From assembly GCF_009931695.1 (NCBI RefSeq), contig NZ_CP048000.1, positions 3,861,501 through 3,925,500 of the forward strand: a stretch of DNA of 64,000 bases. Direction: 5' to 3'. This DNA is from Anaerocolumna sedimenticola. GTDB taxonomy: Bacteria > Bacillota > Clostridia > Lachnospirales > Lachnospiraceae. The notes below the pieces were generated by a model. The model was not told where the DNA came from. It worked only from the letters and a program-made list of their open reading frames with translations, and ran no database searches. A program made the translations under genes and the position numbers. This document shows, piece by piece, positions 7,802-55,128 of this stretch. Positions within the stretch are counted from its first letter, which is position 1. Each line of letters starts with the position of its first letter.

Positions 7802-7889
7802 GTTATCTCAAACCTCCAATTAATAAATGCTTCAGTGGGTAATTGCAAAATTCTTATTTTTTGAATCTACTATACCGCTAATTAAAATT

Positions 7890-9794
7890 TCAGAGCTTCT
7901 GGCCTTTAAGAGTTTCCTGTATTAATTTTATAAATTCTGAAAGGTTCATTTCACCCAGATTGCCTTTTTCAAGATTTCTGACAGATAACGTATCGCATTC
8001 TTTTTCTTTTTGACCAATGATTAACATATATGGTATCTTGTCAAGTTGTGCCTCACGGATTTTATATCCTATTTTTTCATCTCTCGTATCTATTTCACAC
8101 CTGTAACCGGCAGTTTTTAATTTTTTTATAACGGATTCAGCATATTCAATAAATCGATCAGATAACGGCAATATTTTTATTTGTACTGGAGACAGCCATA
8201 AAGGAAATTTGCCGGCATAGTGTTCAATTAATATACCGATAAAACGTTCTATGGATCCAAAAACAACCCGATGAATCATAATTGGTCTGTGCTTCTCTCC
8301 ATCATAGCCAGTATATTCTGCATGAAAGCGTAAGGGAAGTTGAAAATCAAGTTGAATTGTACCACATTGCCATGTCCGTCCGATGGAATCCTCCAAATGA
8401 AAATCAATTTTTGGACCATAAAAAGCTCCATCTCCCTCATTAATAATATAATCCATGTTAAGTTCAGTCAGAGCCTGCTTTAATCCATTTGTCGCAGTAT
8501 CCCAGTCTTCATCGCTGCCTATACTGTTTGCAGGACGGGTGGATAATTCTACATGGTACTTGAATCCAAATTTACTGTAAACCTCATCAATTAATTGGAT
8601 GACACCCTTTATTTCATCTGGTACTTGTTCTTCCGTCATGAAAATATGGGCATCATCCTGAGTAAAGCACCGTGCTCTCATCAATCCATGCAATACACCT
8701 GATTTTTCATGTCTGTGAACCAATCCCAATTCACCGATTCTGAGTGGAAATTCTTTATAGGAATGTGGGGTGGATTTATAAACCAGCATACATCCTGGGC
8801 AATTCATTGGCTTTATTGCATAATCCTCTTCATCAATAATAGTCGTATACATGTTTTCACGGTAATGATCCCAGTGGCCTGAAGTCTCCCAAAGCTCTCT
8901 GTTCAATATGGTTGGAGTTTCTATTTCAACATAACCCTCCCTTTCATGAATCATACGCCAATAGTCAATCAGAAGATTTTTTAGAATTACCCCTTTTGGA
9001 AGAAAGAAGGGAAATCCAGGTCCCTCATCCATAATAGAAAACAGTCCCATTTCCATCCCAACTCTTCGATGATCCCGCCTGCGGGCTTCTTCCAACTGCT
9101 CCAGATACTCCTCTAAATCACTGTTCTTTGGAAATGCTGTTCCATAAATACGTGTGAGCATTTTATTCTTCTCATTACCGCGCCAATAAGCTCCTGCAAT
9201 AGTCATAAGTTTGAATGCTTTTATGCTTATTGTACTTATTAAGTGTGGACCGGAACATAAATCAGTAAAATCTCCCTGCTCATAAAAACTTATTTCTGCG
9301 GTAACGGGTAAATCGTTTATCAATTCTACCTTATAGGGTTCGTTCTTTTCTGCCATAAGTTTAATTGCGTCTTCTCTGGATAAATAAAACCTGTGTAACT
9401 TAATATCCTCTTTTATTATTTTTCTCATTTCCTCTTCAAGTGCTAGTAAATGCCCTGCAGTAAAAACAAAATCAAACTCAAAATCATAATAAAATCCATC
9501 TGTAATTGCAGGTCCGATCGCTAACTTTGTGCTTGGATATAATCGTTTTACCGCCTGTGCCAAAATATGAGCTGTTGTGTGCCGAAAAGCTGCCCGCCCG
9601 TCGGTTTCTTTAAAGGTAAGGATATTTAAATAACAGTCAGACGTTATCATAGTTCTTAAATCGACAATATCTCCATTCAATTCTGCTGCACATGCATCTT
9701 TTTCCAATTGCCTATTCATCTCTTTGGCAAATTCAAAAATACTTTTTTCCTCATTTAGTTCCCGCTTGGAACCATCTTTCATTGTAATAATCAT
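7890..9794 (-). CDS. thrS: threonine--tRNA ligase
   Basis: Charges tRNA-Thr. Domains in order: TGS (MIITMKDGSKRELNEE, residues 1-60), the second editing/SAD domain (GPAITDGFYYDFEF), the class II core with zinc-binding Cys in MNCPGCM, and a C-terminal anticodon-binding domain. At 634 residues it has the normal bacterial length. The frame stays open upstream to 9860, but that stretch covers the T-box terminator, and AAGGAG (9810-9805) is 10 bases from the ATG at 9794 and only 1 base from the ATG at 9803, so I place the start at 9794. Expression is controlled by the T-box leader upstream. Confidence 0.96.
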   Translation of the reverse strand: MIITMKDGSKRELNEEKSIFEFAKEMNRQLEKDACAAELNGDIVDLRTMITSDCYLNILTFKETDGRAAFRHTTAHILAQAVKRLYPSTKLAIGPAITDGFYYDFEFDFVFTAGHLLALEEEMRKIIKEDIKLHRFYLSREDAIKLMAEKNEPYKVELINDLPVTAEISFYEQGDFTDLCSGPHLISTISIKAFKLMTIAGAYWRGNEKNKMLTRIYGTAFPKNSDLEEYLEQLEEARRRDHRRVGMEMGLFSIMDEGPGFPFFLPKGVILKNLLIDYWRMIHEREGYVEIETPTILNRELWETSGHWDHYRENMYTTIIDEEDYAIKPMNCPGCMLVYKSTPHSYKEFPLRIGELGLVHRHEKSGVLHGLMRARCFTQDDAHIFMTEEQVPDEIKGVIQLIDEVYSKFGFKYHVELSTRPANSIGSDEDWDTATNGLKQALTELNMDYIINEGDGAFYGPKIDFHLEDSIGRTWQCGTIQLDFQLPLRFHAEYTGYDGEKHRPIMIHRVVFGSIERFIGILIEHYAGKFPLWLSPVQIKILPLSDRFIEYAESVIKKLKTAGYRCEIDTRDEKIGYKIREAQLDKIPYMLIIGQKEKECDTLSVRNLEKGNLGEMNLSEFIKLIQETLKGQKL

Positions 9795-9850: not shown

Positions 9851-10133
9851 AGAAAAGCACCCCAAGGAAATGACATCAGCCATTTACTTAAGGGTGCATA
9901 AATTATAAATGCACGGTTCCACCTTAACTTTTTACTTCAGATTCTAACAAATCCTATTCTTTAACGCAGACATACGGTAACACATACTAATTACATAACG
10001 TAATTCATTCAATGCTACAGCTCAGGAATGGTTTTCATCTATACTCTTTCATAAAGAACTTCCACCAAATGTTCTTCTCTCTGGATGTTTCCTACAGATT
10101 ACTCTTTTCCGTCATCGCTTTTCCTATGTTATT
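9851..10133 (-). promoter_or_regulatory. T-box leader (threonine) of thrS
   Basis: On the minus strand the leader opens with the stem I signature AGCGATGACGGAAAAGAGTA, has a candidate specifier codon ACC (Thr) at 10032-10030 in the context AAAACCATTCC, and carries the T-box sequence AAGGTGGAACCGTGC at 9925-9911, which pairs with the uncharged tRNA end. It closes with a terminator (GCACCC at 9897-9892 pairing with GGGTGC, then TTTTCTT) just before thrS. Uncharged tRNA-Thr should favour read-through. Confidence 0.93.
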
Positions 10134-12691: not shown

Positions 12692-12850
12692 AAGTAATTA
12701 CGAAATCCCAATTACTCCAATATTGTATCTATATACCATGCAATTAATATAATTTCAGAGCCAAATCTGTCCCCAGAGGGAACTAAAGCTGGAAACAAGG
12801 GTCAATCGTATGGTATATTCAAAAAAACTATGTAGTTTCGCAATTATCTA
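12692..12850. repeat. MITE-like palindromic repeat, copy 1 (inverted orientation)
   Basis: The ends AAGTAATTACGAAAT and GTTTCGCAATTATCT are an imperfect terminal inverted repeat. Read on the minus strand, it matches the folT copy: GCGAAACTA, GAATATACCATA, GGCTCTGAAATT and GGTATATAGATACAAT occur in the same order. The centre differs from the other copies. Possible diverged flanking duplication: TTATGACATGCT and TTATAACATGAT. Confidence 0.8.
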
Positions 12851-18939: not shown

Positions 18940-19044
18940 GATATCTCCTTTCACAAATACAAACTGAAAGGTCTGTCAACAATACTTTCGCAAAAAAATG
19001 CACATATACCAATAAAGTATATATGCAGAAAATTCCACAAAATA

Positions 19045-19130
19045 TATCCCTACGTTGGCATTATCCAAATCAGGTTATGGGTCTAAGCAAAACAGCTTAC
19101 TCTCAGCCTGCTTTTCGCAAGCTCCCCTTT
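19045..19130 (-). promoter_or_regulatory. TPP riboswitch (THI element)
   Basis: On the minus strand all conserved parts appear in order: GGGGAGC, GCAGGCTGAGAGT, GACCC, ATAACCTGATTTGG, ATAATGCC and AACGTAGGGA. It lies about 105 bp before thiM and should shut the operon down when thiamine pyrophosphate is plentiful. Confidence 0.97.
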
Positions 19131-19143
19131 GTATTTATTTTAA

Positions 19144-40157: not shown

Positions 40158-40188
40158 TTAAATCTCCTTTCAATGTCATATATTTTCA

Positions 40189-40292
40189 GGCGATTGCGAA
40201 ACGATATAGTTTTCTGATACACCATACAATTAATACGAATTTCACAGCTTCAGCTGCCTTTTAAATACAATAGCCTTGTTTCGCAATTACCT
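40189..40292. repeat. MITE-like palindromic repeat, copy 2 (internally deleted)
   Basis: It begins GGCGATTGCGAAAC and ends GTTTCGCAATTACCT. The left half matches the complete copies (ACCATACAATTAATACGAAT, TTCACAGCTTCAGCTGCC), but most of the right half is missing. It starts just after the yqeK stop codon (40296). Flanks TCATATATTTTCAG and TCCTATATTCTGAT may be a diverged target duplication. Confidence 0.8.
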
Positions 40293-41844: not shown

Positions 41845-43299
<1,455 letters not shown>

Positions 43300-53986: not shown

Positions 53987-54187
53987 ATTTATCCTCCTAT
54001 CATTATTTTCGCAGGCACCAACTGCAAAGCTGTGCTGATATAGTACTTTTATATTTTTCTCATACTAAAATATATTCGGGACTTGTTCAAATATATGTCT
54101 ACCATAGTTAATAATTTTATCTTCCTGTTTGATTCGTCAATAAGATTTGAGTGTGAAAAGAAAAAGTTTTGTTTTCTAAGTGAATTC

Positions 54188-54216
54188 TTGATAAATTATC
54201 CCAGTTCTGGTATAGT
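54188..54216 (+). promoter_or_regulatory. folT promoter
   Basis: TTGATA (54188-54193) and TATAGT (54211-54216) are 17 bases apart. Transcription would begin a few bases before the THF riboswitch. Confidence 0.65.
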
Positions 54217-54237
54217 TAATAAGTCAAAAAATACTGA

Positions 54238-54335
54238 TAGCAGAGTAGGATTTTGTGCGTTAAGTGTCACCGGAACGGGGAGTTGTCCGATGAACGAAAA
54301 GTTATCTTGCGGTACAGAATTCGCATCCCGCTGCT
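54238..54335 (+). promoter_or_regulatory. tetrahydrofolate (THF) riboswitch
   Basis: The aptamer parts are all present: AGAGTAGGATTTTGTG, GCGTTAAGTGTCACCGG, AACGGGGAGTTGTCCGATG, AACGAAAAGTT, TTGCGGTACAGAATTCGCA and TCCCGCTGC, in the order of the known folT THF aptamer (AGAGTAG...GCGTTAAGTGT...GCATCCGCTC). A hairpin with CTAC/GTAG arms (54334-54363) follows. It senses reduced folates and controls the folate transporter gene. Confidence 0.88.
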
Positions 54336-54377
54336 ACATGATAGGCATGATACCTTCTAGTAGTAGCAATATTTTAA

Positions 54378-54555
54378 GACATCTAATTATTAGGTAATTG
54401 CGAAACTATTTAATTTTCTGAATATACCATATAACTAATACGAATTTCAGAGCTTCAGTTGTCCGTTGGACAAGATTCAGCTCTGAAATTGTATTAGTTG
54501 TATGGTATATAGATACAATAATGGTGTTCCCAATTACCTGACATCTAATTATTAG
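54378..54555. repeat. MITE-like palindromic repeat, copy 5 (complete) with 16-bp target duplication
   Basis: The element (54394-54539) begins GTAATTGCGAAAC and ends GTTCCCAATTACCT and is one long imperfect palindrome with centre TTGTCC-gtt-GGACAA. It is flanked on both sides by the identical 16 bases GACATCTAATTATTAG (54378-54393 and 54540-54555), as expected of a target-site duplication. It lies between the THF aptamer and the folT ribosome site. Confidence 0.93.
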
Positions 54556-54570
54556 AAAAGGAGGTATACT

Positions 54571-55128
54571 ATGCAAAAATTAATTTATTCTTTAAAAGAA
54601 TCTGCAAAAGAATTGCGGAAAGTACATAATTTGGCTATAACAGCCATGCTTGCGGCATTAAATACGGTAATCGGTTTTTTTACCATTACAATCGGTGAAT
54701 TTATTAAAATCGGTTTTTCCTTCCTCACCATAGGTATTGCCGGTATGCTTTATGGACCAGTTATAGCCGGTATATTAGGTGGTACTTGTGATGTCTTAAA
54801 TTACCTGATAAAACCGACCGGTCCTTTTTTTCCGGGTTTCACCTTAAGTTCAATACTATCCGGTTTCATTTATGGTTTGTATCTTTATAAAAAACCAATC
54901 AGTATCCGCAGAGTTTTTTTTGCTAAATTAACGGTTGTTATTTTTGTTGACTTAATTCTTACAACTACATGGCTATCCATTTTATATGGTAAAGCATTTA
55001 TCATTTTGCTGCCTATGCGTCTCTTAAAAGCAATCATTATGCTCCCCATCGATACCGGAATCCTATATATTGTCCTGAAAAGAATCACTGCCTATGCCAG
55101 TCCTGGTGAAATCCATCAAAAACGTTGA
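54571..55128 (+). CDS. folT: folate ECF transporter S component
   Basis: The substrate-binding membrane subunit of an energy-coupling-factor transporter for folates. The 185 residues contain five to six membrane segments and the S-component N-terminus ([60 protein letters not shown]). The folate assignment rests on similarity to FolT and on the THF riboswitch upstream. ATG follows AAAAGGAGG. tyrS follows after 56 bp and may be co-transcribed. Confidence 0.9.

Follow-up and report, generated by a model that had tools for sequence, protein, structure and literature searches.

A palindromic element between a THF riboswitch and folT in Anaerocolumna sedimenticola points to a transposon family that lands beside Shine-Dalgarno-like motifs

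Introduction

THF represses folT, and in the stretch of the Anaerocolumna sedimenticola genome analysed here (64,000 nucleotides of contig NZ_CP048000.1, positions 3,861,501 to 3,925,500; hereafter the window) a palindromic repeat lies between the THF aptamer and the ribosome-binding site of this gene. The locus raises the question of whether folT can still respond to THF across the repeat, and of how the repeat came to lie at this point. We consider it probable that the insert is a MITE of an insertion sequence (IS) whose transposase reads a GAAAGGAG-like motif as DNA, that elements of this kind land 5' of Shine-Dalgarno (SD) sequences, and that the predicted OFF state of folT has been kept.

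Results

A lineage-specific insertion in the folT leader

A preliminary description of this DNA held that the aptamer is split from the folT ribosome site by a palindromic mobile element with a perfect 16-bp target duplication, and both points are borne out by the match to RF01831 (Table 1), the duplication itself and an empty site in a close relative. The sequence GACATCTAATTATTAG is identical at 16 of 16 positions in its two copies, 54378-54393 and 54540-54555. Read as AGG...CCT, the form seen in the related copies, the element occupies 54392-54539 (148 bp) and is flanked by a 14-bp duplication, GACATCTAATTATT; this parse is also valid, the sole difference from the 146-bp element with a 16-bp duplication being a shared AG. 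Folded by itself, the element reaches -64.3 kcal/mol, and the leader has a z score of -8.7, a stability far above chance.

The preliminary description had also proposed comparison with the folT leader of close relatives, which revealed that the insertion is lineage-specific. In the closest congener (G007), whose folT is 91% identical, the leader aligns throughout, with one copy of the repeat and without the element. The THF aptamer was found in 25 of 61 genomes searched (window genome counted), and a folT homologue lies downstream of it in 24 of the 25 loci compared (tblastn, E up to 1e-3). Aptamer end and folT match are 63-96 nt apart in nine congeners versus 235 nt in the window genome; the distance is 315 nt in a tenth congener (G002), measured to a weak folT match (33% identity). 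Among the ten genus members whose leaders were compared, only the window genome carries an element between the anti-SD and the SD. The THF leader suggests that the product of folT is specific for folate. Two further RNA leaders above their Rfam cut-offs, a T-box leader (9887-10124) and a TPP riboswitch (19030-19139), lie on the - strand of the window.

Table 1. Features of the folT leader and related element copies, in window coordinates.
Feature	Position	Strand	Basis or remark
Promoter-like site, TTGATA-17-TATAGT with TG	54188-54216	+	Consensus scan, 10/12; aptamer downstream; candidate only
THF riboswitch aptamer	54239-54335	+	Rfam RF01831, 91.4 bits (gathering score 36)
Ligand-free alternative hairpin, GCUGCUAC/GUAGUAGC	54330-54367	+	Predicted; competes with helix P1 and encloses the anti-SD
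Anti-SD, AUACCUUCU	54350-54358	+	9 pairs with 54559-54567, one of them G-U
Target duplication, copy 1	54378-54393	+	14 bp to 54391, then shared AG
Palindromic MITE, 148 bp, ends AGGTAATTGCGAAACTA and ...CCAATTACCT	54392-54539	+	Sequence, genome and profile searches
Target duplication, copy 2	54540-54555	+	Sequence
folT SD region, AGGAGGUAU	54559-54567	+	AAAGGAGG motif starts 17 nt past the element end
folT, ECF transporter substrate-binding component	54571-55128	+	ORF of 185 aa; Pfam PF12822, 60.5 bits (cut-off 30.7)
Partial copy	7837-7906		TTGGAGG then ATG on the left side (by eye)
Near-full copy	12693-12849		Left side AAAGGATGAATATTATG
105-bp relative with both terminal repeats	40188-40292		Left side GAAAGGAGATTTAAATG
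Near-full copy	41856-42003		Left side AAGGAGATTAAATAATG

The leader resembles a translational OFF switch that is predicted to survive the insertion

The preliminary description had considered control ahead of the insertion, by a terminator near 54334-54363. A scan of 54100-54640 returned no terminator-like sites, and the stretch in question corresponds instead to the anti-SD hairpin of what appears to be a genus-wide translational switch. In congeners a downstream GTAGTAGC-like stretch offers the 3' strand of P1 (CTGCTAC) an alternative partner, giving a hairpin that encloses the anti-SD; the hairpin at 54330-54367 was found in the unconstrained minimum-energy fold of the window leader, and similar hairpins are present in congener leaders. 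All seven core positions of the anti-SD:SD duplex are paired in each of the 10 genus members (window genome included). The pair at position -3 is U-A in two, A-U in two, C-G in three, U-G in one and broken in two (paired in 8 of 10), counts that overstate the number of independent events because the three C-G members (G011, G012 and G014) are near-identical there. Pairing beyond the core is patchy, with position -4 paired in 4 of 10. From these sequence comparisons, the leader looks like a translational OFF switch, shared within the genus, that sets the anti-SD against the SD. Before the insertion, THF binding would have held P1 and left the anti-SD free to mask both the SD and the start codon; the MITE would have entered this switch between its anti-SD and its SD.

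Two constrained folds of the leader were computed, a bound-like one in which the aptamer pairs were imposed and a free-like one in which the alternative hairpin was imposed. With the element in place, the SD was unpaired with a probability of 0.04 in the bound-like and 0.48 in the free-like state, and anti-SD:SD pairing in the bound-like state was 0.96; for the empty site the corresponding values were 0.19, 0.44 and 0.84. The free-bound ensemble gap was 7.1 kcal/mol with the element versus 6.6 kcal/mol for the empty site. These bound-state figures depend on the pairs having been enforced, since the minimum-energy fold computed without constraints forms the alternative hairpin instead of the aptamer. 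When the element was replaced by shuffled inserts of equal length (60 in all), bound anti-SD:SD pairing averaged 0.79 and the free-bound difference reached at least 0.3 in 32 of the 60, while that of the empty site was only 0.25. The idea that the hairpin of the element is needed to keep the switch was dropped as unsupported, since shuffled, unstructured inserts did nearly as well.

Within the anti-SD/SD loop the element is predicted to form a hairpin of its own, so that the OFF state would be preserved while sensing and decision are 162 nt further apart. The folding models predict that the two-state design as a whole survives the insertion, and we infer from them that folT has retained control by THF; the longer wait until the SD is transcribed would favour sensing at equilibrium. 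The preliminary description had also raised the opposite outcome, in which folT is uncoupled from THF, either through an SD now too far from its anti-SD or through signals that the element brings with it. We regard this as unlikely but not negligible, given that the anti-SD and SD have moved 162 nt further apart and that the predicted bound state depends on enforced aptamer pairs absent from the unconstrained fold. Folding lends uncoupling no support, as predicted bound pairing and the ensemble gap are both larger with the element than without it; the 9 bp of complementarity between SD and anti-SD are intact; and consensus scans found neither a + strand promoter-like site inside the element, for which reason an outward promoter was rejected, nor a terminator-like site in the region. 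The regulatory reading of the preliminary description is only partly supported. The local finding makes a good but modest case: a mobile element in a riboswitch platform that, by these models, probably still works.

The element belongs to a large MITE family in the window genome

A search of the window genome (G000) found at least 39 other copies at 83-89% identity, with 40 of 225 candidates scored. The terminal-repeat pattern, allowing up to 3 mismatches, matched 385 times in the genome versus 51 times for a reversed control, from which we estimate ~165 copies with two ends each. Sampling ~995 kb around terminal-repeat or homology matches, chosen regardless of SDs, yielded 99 copies, 72 of them near full length. 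The elements are short, have terminal inverted repeats, a duplication and many copies, and lack a transposase, as MITEs do. Within the window itself there are five copies, four from the profile search and the 105-bp relative, whose overlapping profile match was counted once, and by eye all five adjoin SD-like sequence followed by ATG. Very short relatives of 39 bp (G000 position 5400667) and 74 bp (896531) have the same terminal repeats and also lie beside SD-like sequence by eye. At 515480-515787 of the same genome, two element copies lie ~12 bp apart, one beside an SD and the other directly behind the first.

In 40 copy-bearing stretches scanned at Rfam gathering scores, no other copy was found between a known RNA leader and its gene; the scan returned the folT THF aptamer and one T-box, the latter more than 1 kb from the copy in its stretch. 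The window genome yielded no intact transposase; all that was detected is an 83-residue piece of 53% identity (4225119-4225367; L183, L119), so that the MITEs of this genome may now be stranded.

Copies lie at a fixed distance from SDs and start codons

What the preliminary description had missed is that landing just 5' of an SD is the usual behaviour of this element family. Under a strict rule, in which an SD core is followed by a start codon that opens at least 30 codons, a start codon with SD lies 24-36 nt from one end in 56 of the 72 near-full copies, whereas 888 of 20,000 random noncoding positions (4.4%) satisfy it (p ~4e-61). In these 56 copies the SD core lies at 19.2 ± 2.2 nt and the start codon at 31.2 ± 2.5 nt. 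Of the 16 copies that miss the rule, 12 have a purine-rich SD-like motif near the right distance by eye, some of them weak, and four (59592, 515641, 1282539 and 1647872) have no SD-like motif by eye.

In congeners 19 of 23 copies pass (6/9 in G010, 8/9 in G007 and 5/5 in G006), the random control being that of the window genome only; one of the congener copies (L122), for which a place beside a terminator stem was considered and dropped, has an SD and start codon by the congener rule. Pooled, 85 of 95 copies matched AAAGGAGG at 6 or more of 8 positions on one side, versus 19.7% of 20,000 control positions from the window genome. On the other side, a codirectional gene ends within 150 nt in 37 of 58 copies (first version of the rule, with crude gene calls), which argues that a preference for promoter-bearing gaps is not the cause.

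The parent is an IS with a putative, distantly IS1182-like transposase

With at most one mismatch allowed, 51 of 299 genomes of the family (own included) contain the terminal repeat, versus 9 for the reversed control. In one of them (G219) it bounds a 1,757-bp IS with a single 485-codon gene, flanked by the duplication AATAAAGTTGTTA and then AAAAGAAAGGAG. Transposase homologues were present in 32 of 200 family genomes, and a scan of named genomes with an alignment of five proteins found 270 relatives, the best 80 of which were analysed. Both ends could be placed in 70 of these 80, with the left flank readable in 69 and the right in 65. The hosts are Lachnospiraceae and kin, including Roseburia inulinivorans, [Ruminococcus] torques, Mediterraneibacter massiliensis, Blautia massiliensis, Lacrimispora and Lachnoanaerobaculum; the IS of a further genome of the family (G125) has the same duplication and flank as that of Lachnoanaerobaculum gingivalis (L164, L253).

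The left flank, 5' of the transposase gene, carries AAAGGAGG at 6 or more of 8 positions in 64 of 69 IS, at offsets 14-20 in 62 and at offsets 11 and 13 in the other two. The match is 7 or more of 8 at offsets 14-20 in 52 of 69, and the control frequencies among 6,900 positions are 2.9% (at least 6/8) and 0.35% (at least 7/8). Five left flanks fall below 6/8, including one (L235) with the motif on the right, a side on which the motif reaches this score in only 7 of 65. Perfect duplications of 10-16 bp flank 40 of the 70 IS (lengths of 8-16 searched), with a mode of 12 bp: 10 bp in 5, 11 bp in 10, 12 bp in 11, 13 bp in 8, 14 bp in 3, 15 bp in 2 and 16 bp in 1.

The two IS ends differ (consensus of 70: left TAGGCGTTTGCGAAACGCC, right TAGGTAATTGCGAAACAAG), and the right-end consensus, TAGGTAATTGCGAAAC, equals the MITE ends, both of which are right-type by consensus. 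The MITE was presumably mobilised by the transposase of the parent IS. The end facing the motif is the left in 36 and the right in 25 MITE copies (61 scorable of 72), a weak orientation bias that is explained if the transposase can hardly distinguish two right-type ends.

The transposase matches Pfam DUF772 (PF05598) at 43.2 bits, cut-off 23.1 (one protein), and four of four transposases score 68-78 bits against NF033551 (76 for G219), below its cut-off of 270. The parent is hence best described as an IS of ~1.75 kb with a divergent, putatively IS1182-like transposase, the likeness being distant. Structural models of the transposase (38 sequences) reached a best pLDDT of 75, the other four ranging from 73 to 50, and Foldseek gave weak matches to piggyBac (E 4e-4) and Tn5 transposase (E 7e-4) with TM scores of 0.26-0.36; a sequence profile of the transposase had no match among PDB chains. 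The model is consistent with a DDE enzyme and uninformative on how the target is read. An IS4-type parent was considered and set aside, with a single PF01609 match in the window genome. Wider IS1182 relatives at 25-32% identity (L185-L187, L189, L190 and L192) had other or doubtful inverted repeats and duplications of at most 5 bp, and the motif was not found at a fixed distance, in a crude end search that recovered one of two positive controls (L163, not L220); a further locus (L188) is without an ORF.

The motif is most likely read as DNA

Anchored targets read G-AAAGGAG, and we compared them with native SDs that have a GGAG core in the same loci, taken from crude ORF calling. GAAA precedes GGAG in 39 of 55 targets but in 5 of 108 native SDs (p 2.5e-19); a G directly after GGAG was counted in 8 of the 55 targets and in 52 of the 108 native SDs (p 3e-5). 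The score by which targets were selected includes the AAA and the last G, so the AAA contrast is inflated; the excess of a leading G (84% of targets versus 24% of natives) and the shortage of the last G are the cleaner evidence, as the former is not in the score and the latter runs against what the score favours. A start codon opening at least 20 codons follows the motif in 44 of 62 IS targets and is absent in 18. A more widely spaced start is present in 3 of the 18; in 9 the motif lies within an open frame of 60 codons or more that continues as far as the IS edge; 5 show a short ORF only and 1 neither. Because the targets are unlike native SDs and a start codon is missing from some of them, direct recognition of the motif as DNA by the transposase is most likely.

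In the proposed mechanism, the transposase would recognise a GAAAGGAG-like motif as DNA, and insertion would duplicate ~11-13 bp of AT-rich DNA roughly 5 bp 5' of it, leaving the SD and the coding region intact. A full IS would insert one way, its left end (the 5' side of the transposase gene) toward the motif, so that the transposase gene lies antisense to the gene downstream, while a MITE, with two right-type ends, would insert either way round. As GAAAGGAG-like motifs in noncoding DNA are mostly SDs (a start follows 86 of the 104 noncoding AAAGGAG sites found in the portion of the window genome that was sampled), elements would accumulate immediately 5' of ribosome-binding sites, and motif recognition combined with loss of coding insertions would explain the pattern without a role for translation. 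Together, the sequence comparisons make a strong case that this transposon family lands at ribosome-binding sites via an 8-bp motif.

A similar distribution could arise if insertion were random and selection kept the copies just upstream of SDs, where they are harmless or useful. Coding insertions must indeed be purged, and the sampled noncoding motif sites mostly precede starts, but selection of this kind would not confine copies to within ~2 nt of a fixed distance when whole intergenic regions are available, nor would it nearly fix the orientation of the IS. Selection for harmlessness would not produce the leading G and missing trailing G that distinguish the sites from native SDs, and it does not account for the 18 IS targets without a qualifying start, including the nine in a long open frame up to the IS; we hold this account to be improbable.

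Guidance by the translation machinery, through the 16S rRNA tail or an initiating or ribosome-bound complex, would couple transposition to translation initiation. The 16S rRNA tail is CUCCUUUC, the exact complement of GAAAGGAG, and most targets do precede a start codon, three more at wider spacing. Against it, SDs of the AGGAGG type are under-used (G after GGAG, above), some targets have no start codon, and the profile and a weak fold match suggest a transposase of the ordinary DDE type, all of which makes this coupling very improbable. That the element and its copies are non-mobile repeats born with their genes as a repeated regulatory motif would suit their regular placement ahead of genes, but is practically ruled out by target duplications specific to each copy, the empty site in G007, and the existence of a parent IS with a transposase, like ends and duplications.

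Discussion

Recognition of a GAAAGGAG-like motif as DNA would place this family among elements that find harmless sites by sequence. Tn7 uses one conserved site, via a separate targeting protein. Like Tn7, the IS described here inserts in a specific orientation at a set distance from a recognised sequence and in a harmless place; it differs in that a short and very frequent motif appears to suffice and that the IS encodes one protein.

The likeness to the IS1182 family, and to IS1272 within it, extends to an NF033551-related transposase, the DUF772 domain, a single ORF, a length of ~1.75 kb and terminal inverted repeats, whereas the transposase here falls far under the 270-bit NF033551 cut-off. 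In the accessible part of its description, IS1272, an IS1182 relative, is reported to replace stem-loops of unrelated sequence (PMC5678879); the IS studied here instead generates duplications of 10-16 bp next to a GAAAGGAG-like motif, for the most part in a single orientation, and its 40 perfect duplications among 70 IS do not agree with stem-loop replacement, which leaves none. A survey of IS neighbourhoods, in the portion available, reports IS1182 to be over-represented in the ->IS<- arrangement (PMC9208149), which differs from the start-facing arrangement of the present clade.

Compared with bacterial MITEs as the available part of a review presents them (PMC10969869), the element shares short length, palindromic structure, terminal repeats, duplications, many copies, absence of an ORF and ends in common with a parent IS; it differs in being placed by a ribosome-binding-site motif, and the main text of that review, to the extent available, does not contain the terms Shine, ribosome binding or start codon. 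Judged by title and abstract, none of the matches listed for the open-licence literature describes SD-targeted transposon insertion, and as far as the literature was searched the habit is new. With respect to THF riboswitches (RF01831) of folT, the locus has a full aptamer match and the translational anti-SD platform seen in its genus, and differs in that a mobile element parts the anti-SD from the SD.

If this reading is correct, a transposon family lands safely in a compact genome by reading the SD, which is among the commonest conserved non-coding signals, and this would explain how one genome carries an estimated ~165 copies with little coding damage. Such elements would systematically rewrite 5' leaders, a riboswitch platform included, and the leaders with and without an insert form a natural set on how riboswitches and translation initiation tolerate long insertions. 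The family would also offer a testable, orientation-specific insertion system aimed at gene starts, for which target variants such as GAAAGGAG and AGGAGGTG could be used.

Several observations concern relatives of the IS. A 2.0-kb element (L157, 3999-6005; G139) has the same ends and several small ORFs (129 aa at most) with no recognisable transposase, and adjoins AGAAAGGAG, ~60 nt upstream of the ATG that opens secA (identified by its Pfam SecA domains); it is a cargo-carrying relative whose motif is not plainly the secA SD. The transposase region is not annotated as a transposase in a plasmid of Roseburia sp. 831b (L274) or in pCY360 of Butyrivibrio proteoclasticus (L273), and other annotations may likewise overlook the family. 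At its left end the IS has the hairpin GGCGTTTGCGAAACGCC, and next to it on the inner side lie CCGCATAAATACGG and a run of T (consensus, L193-L272), an arrangement that in sequence is like a terminator reading into the IS.
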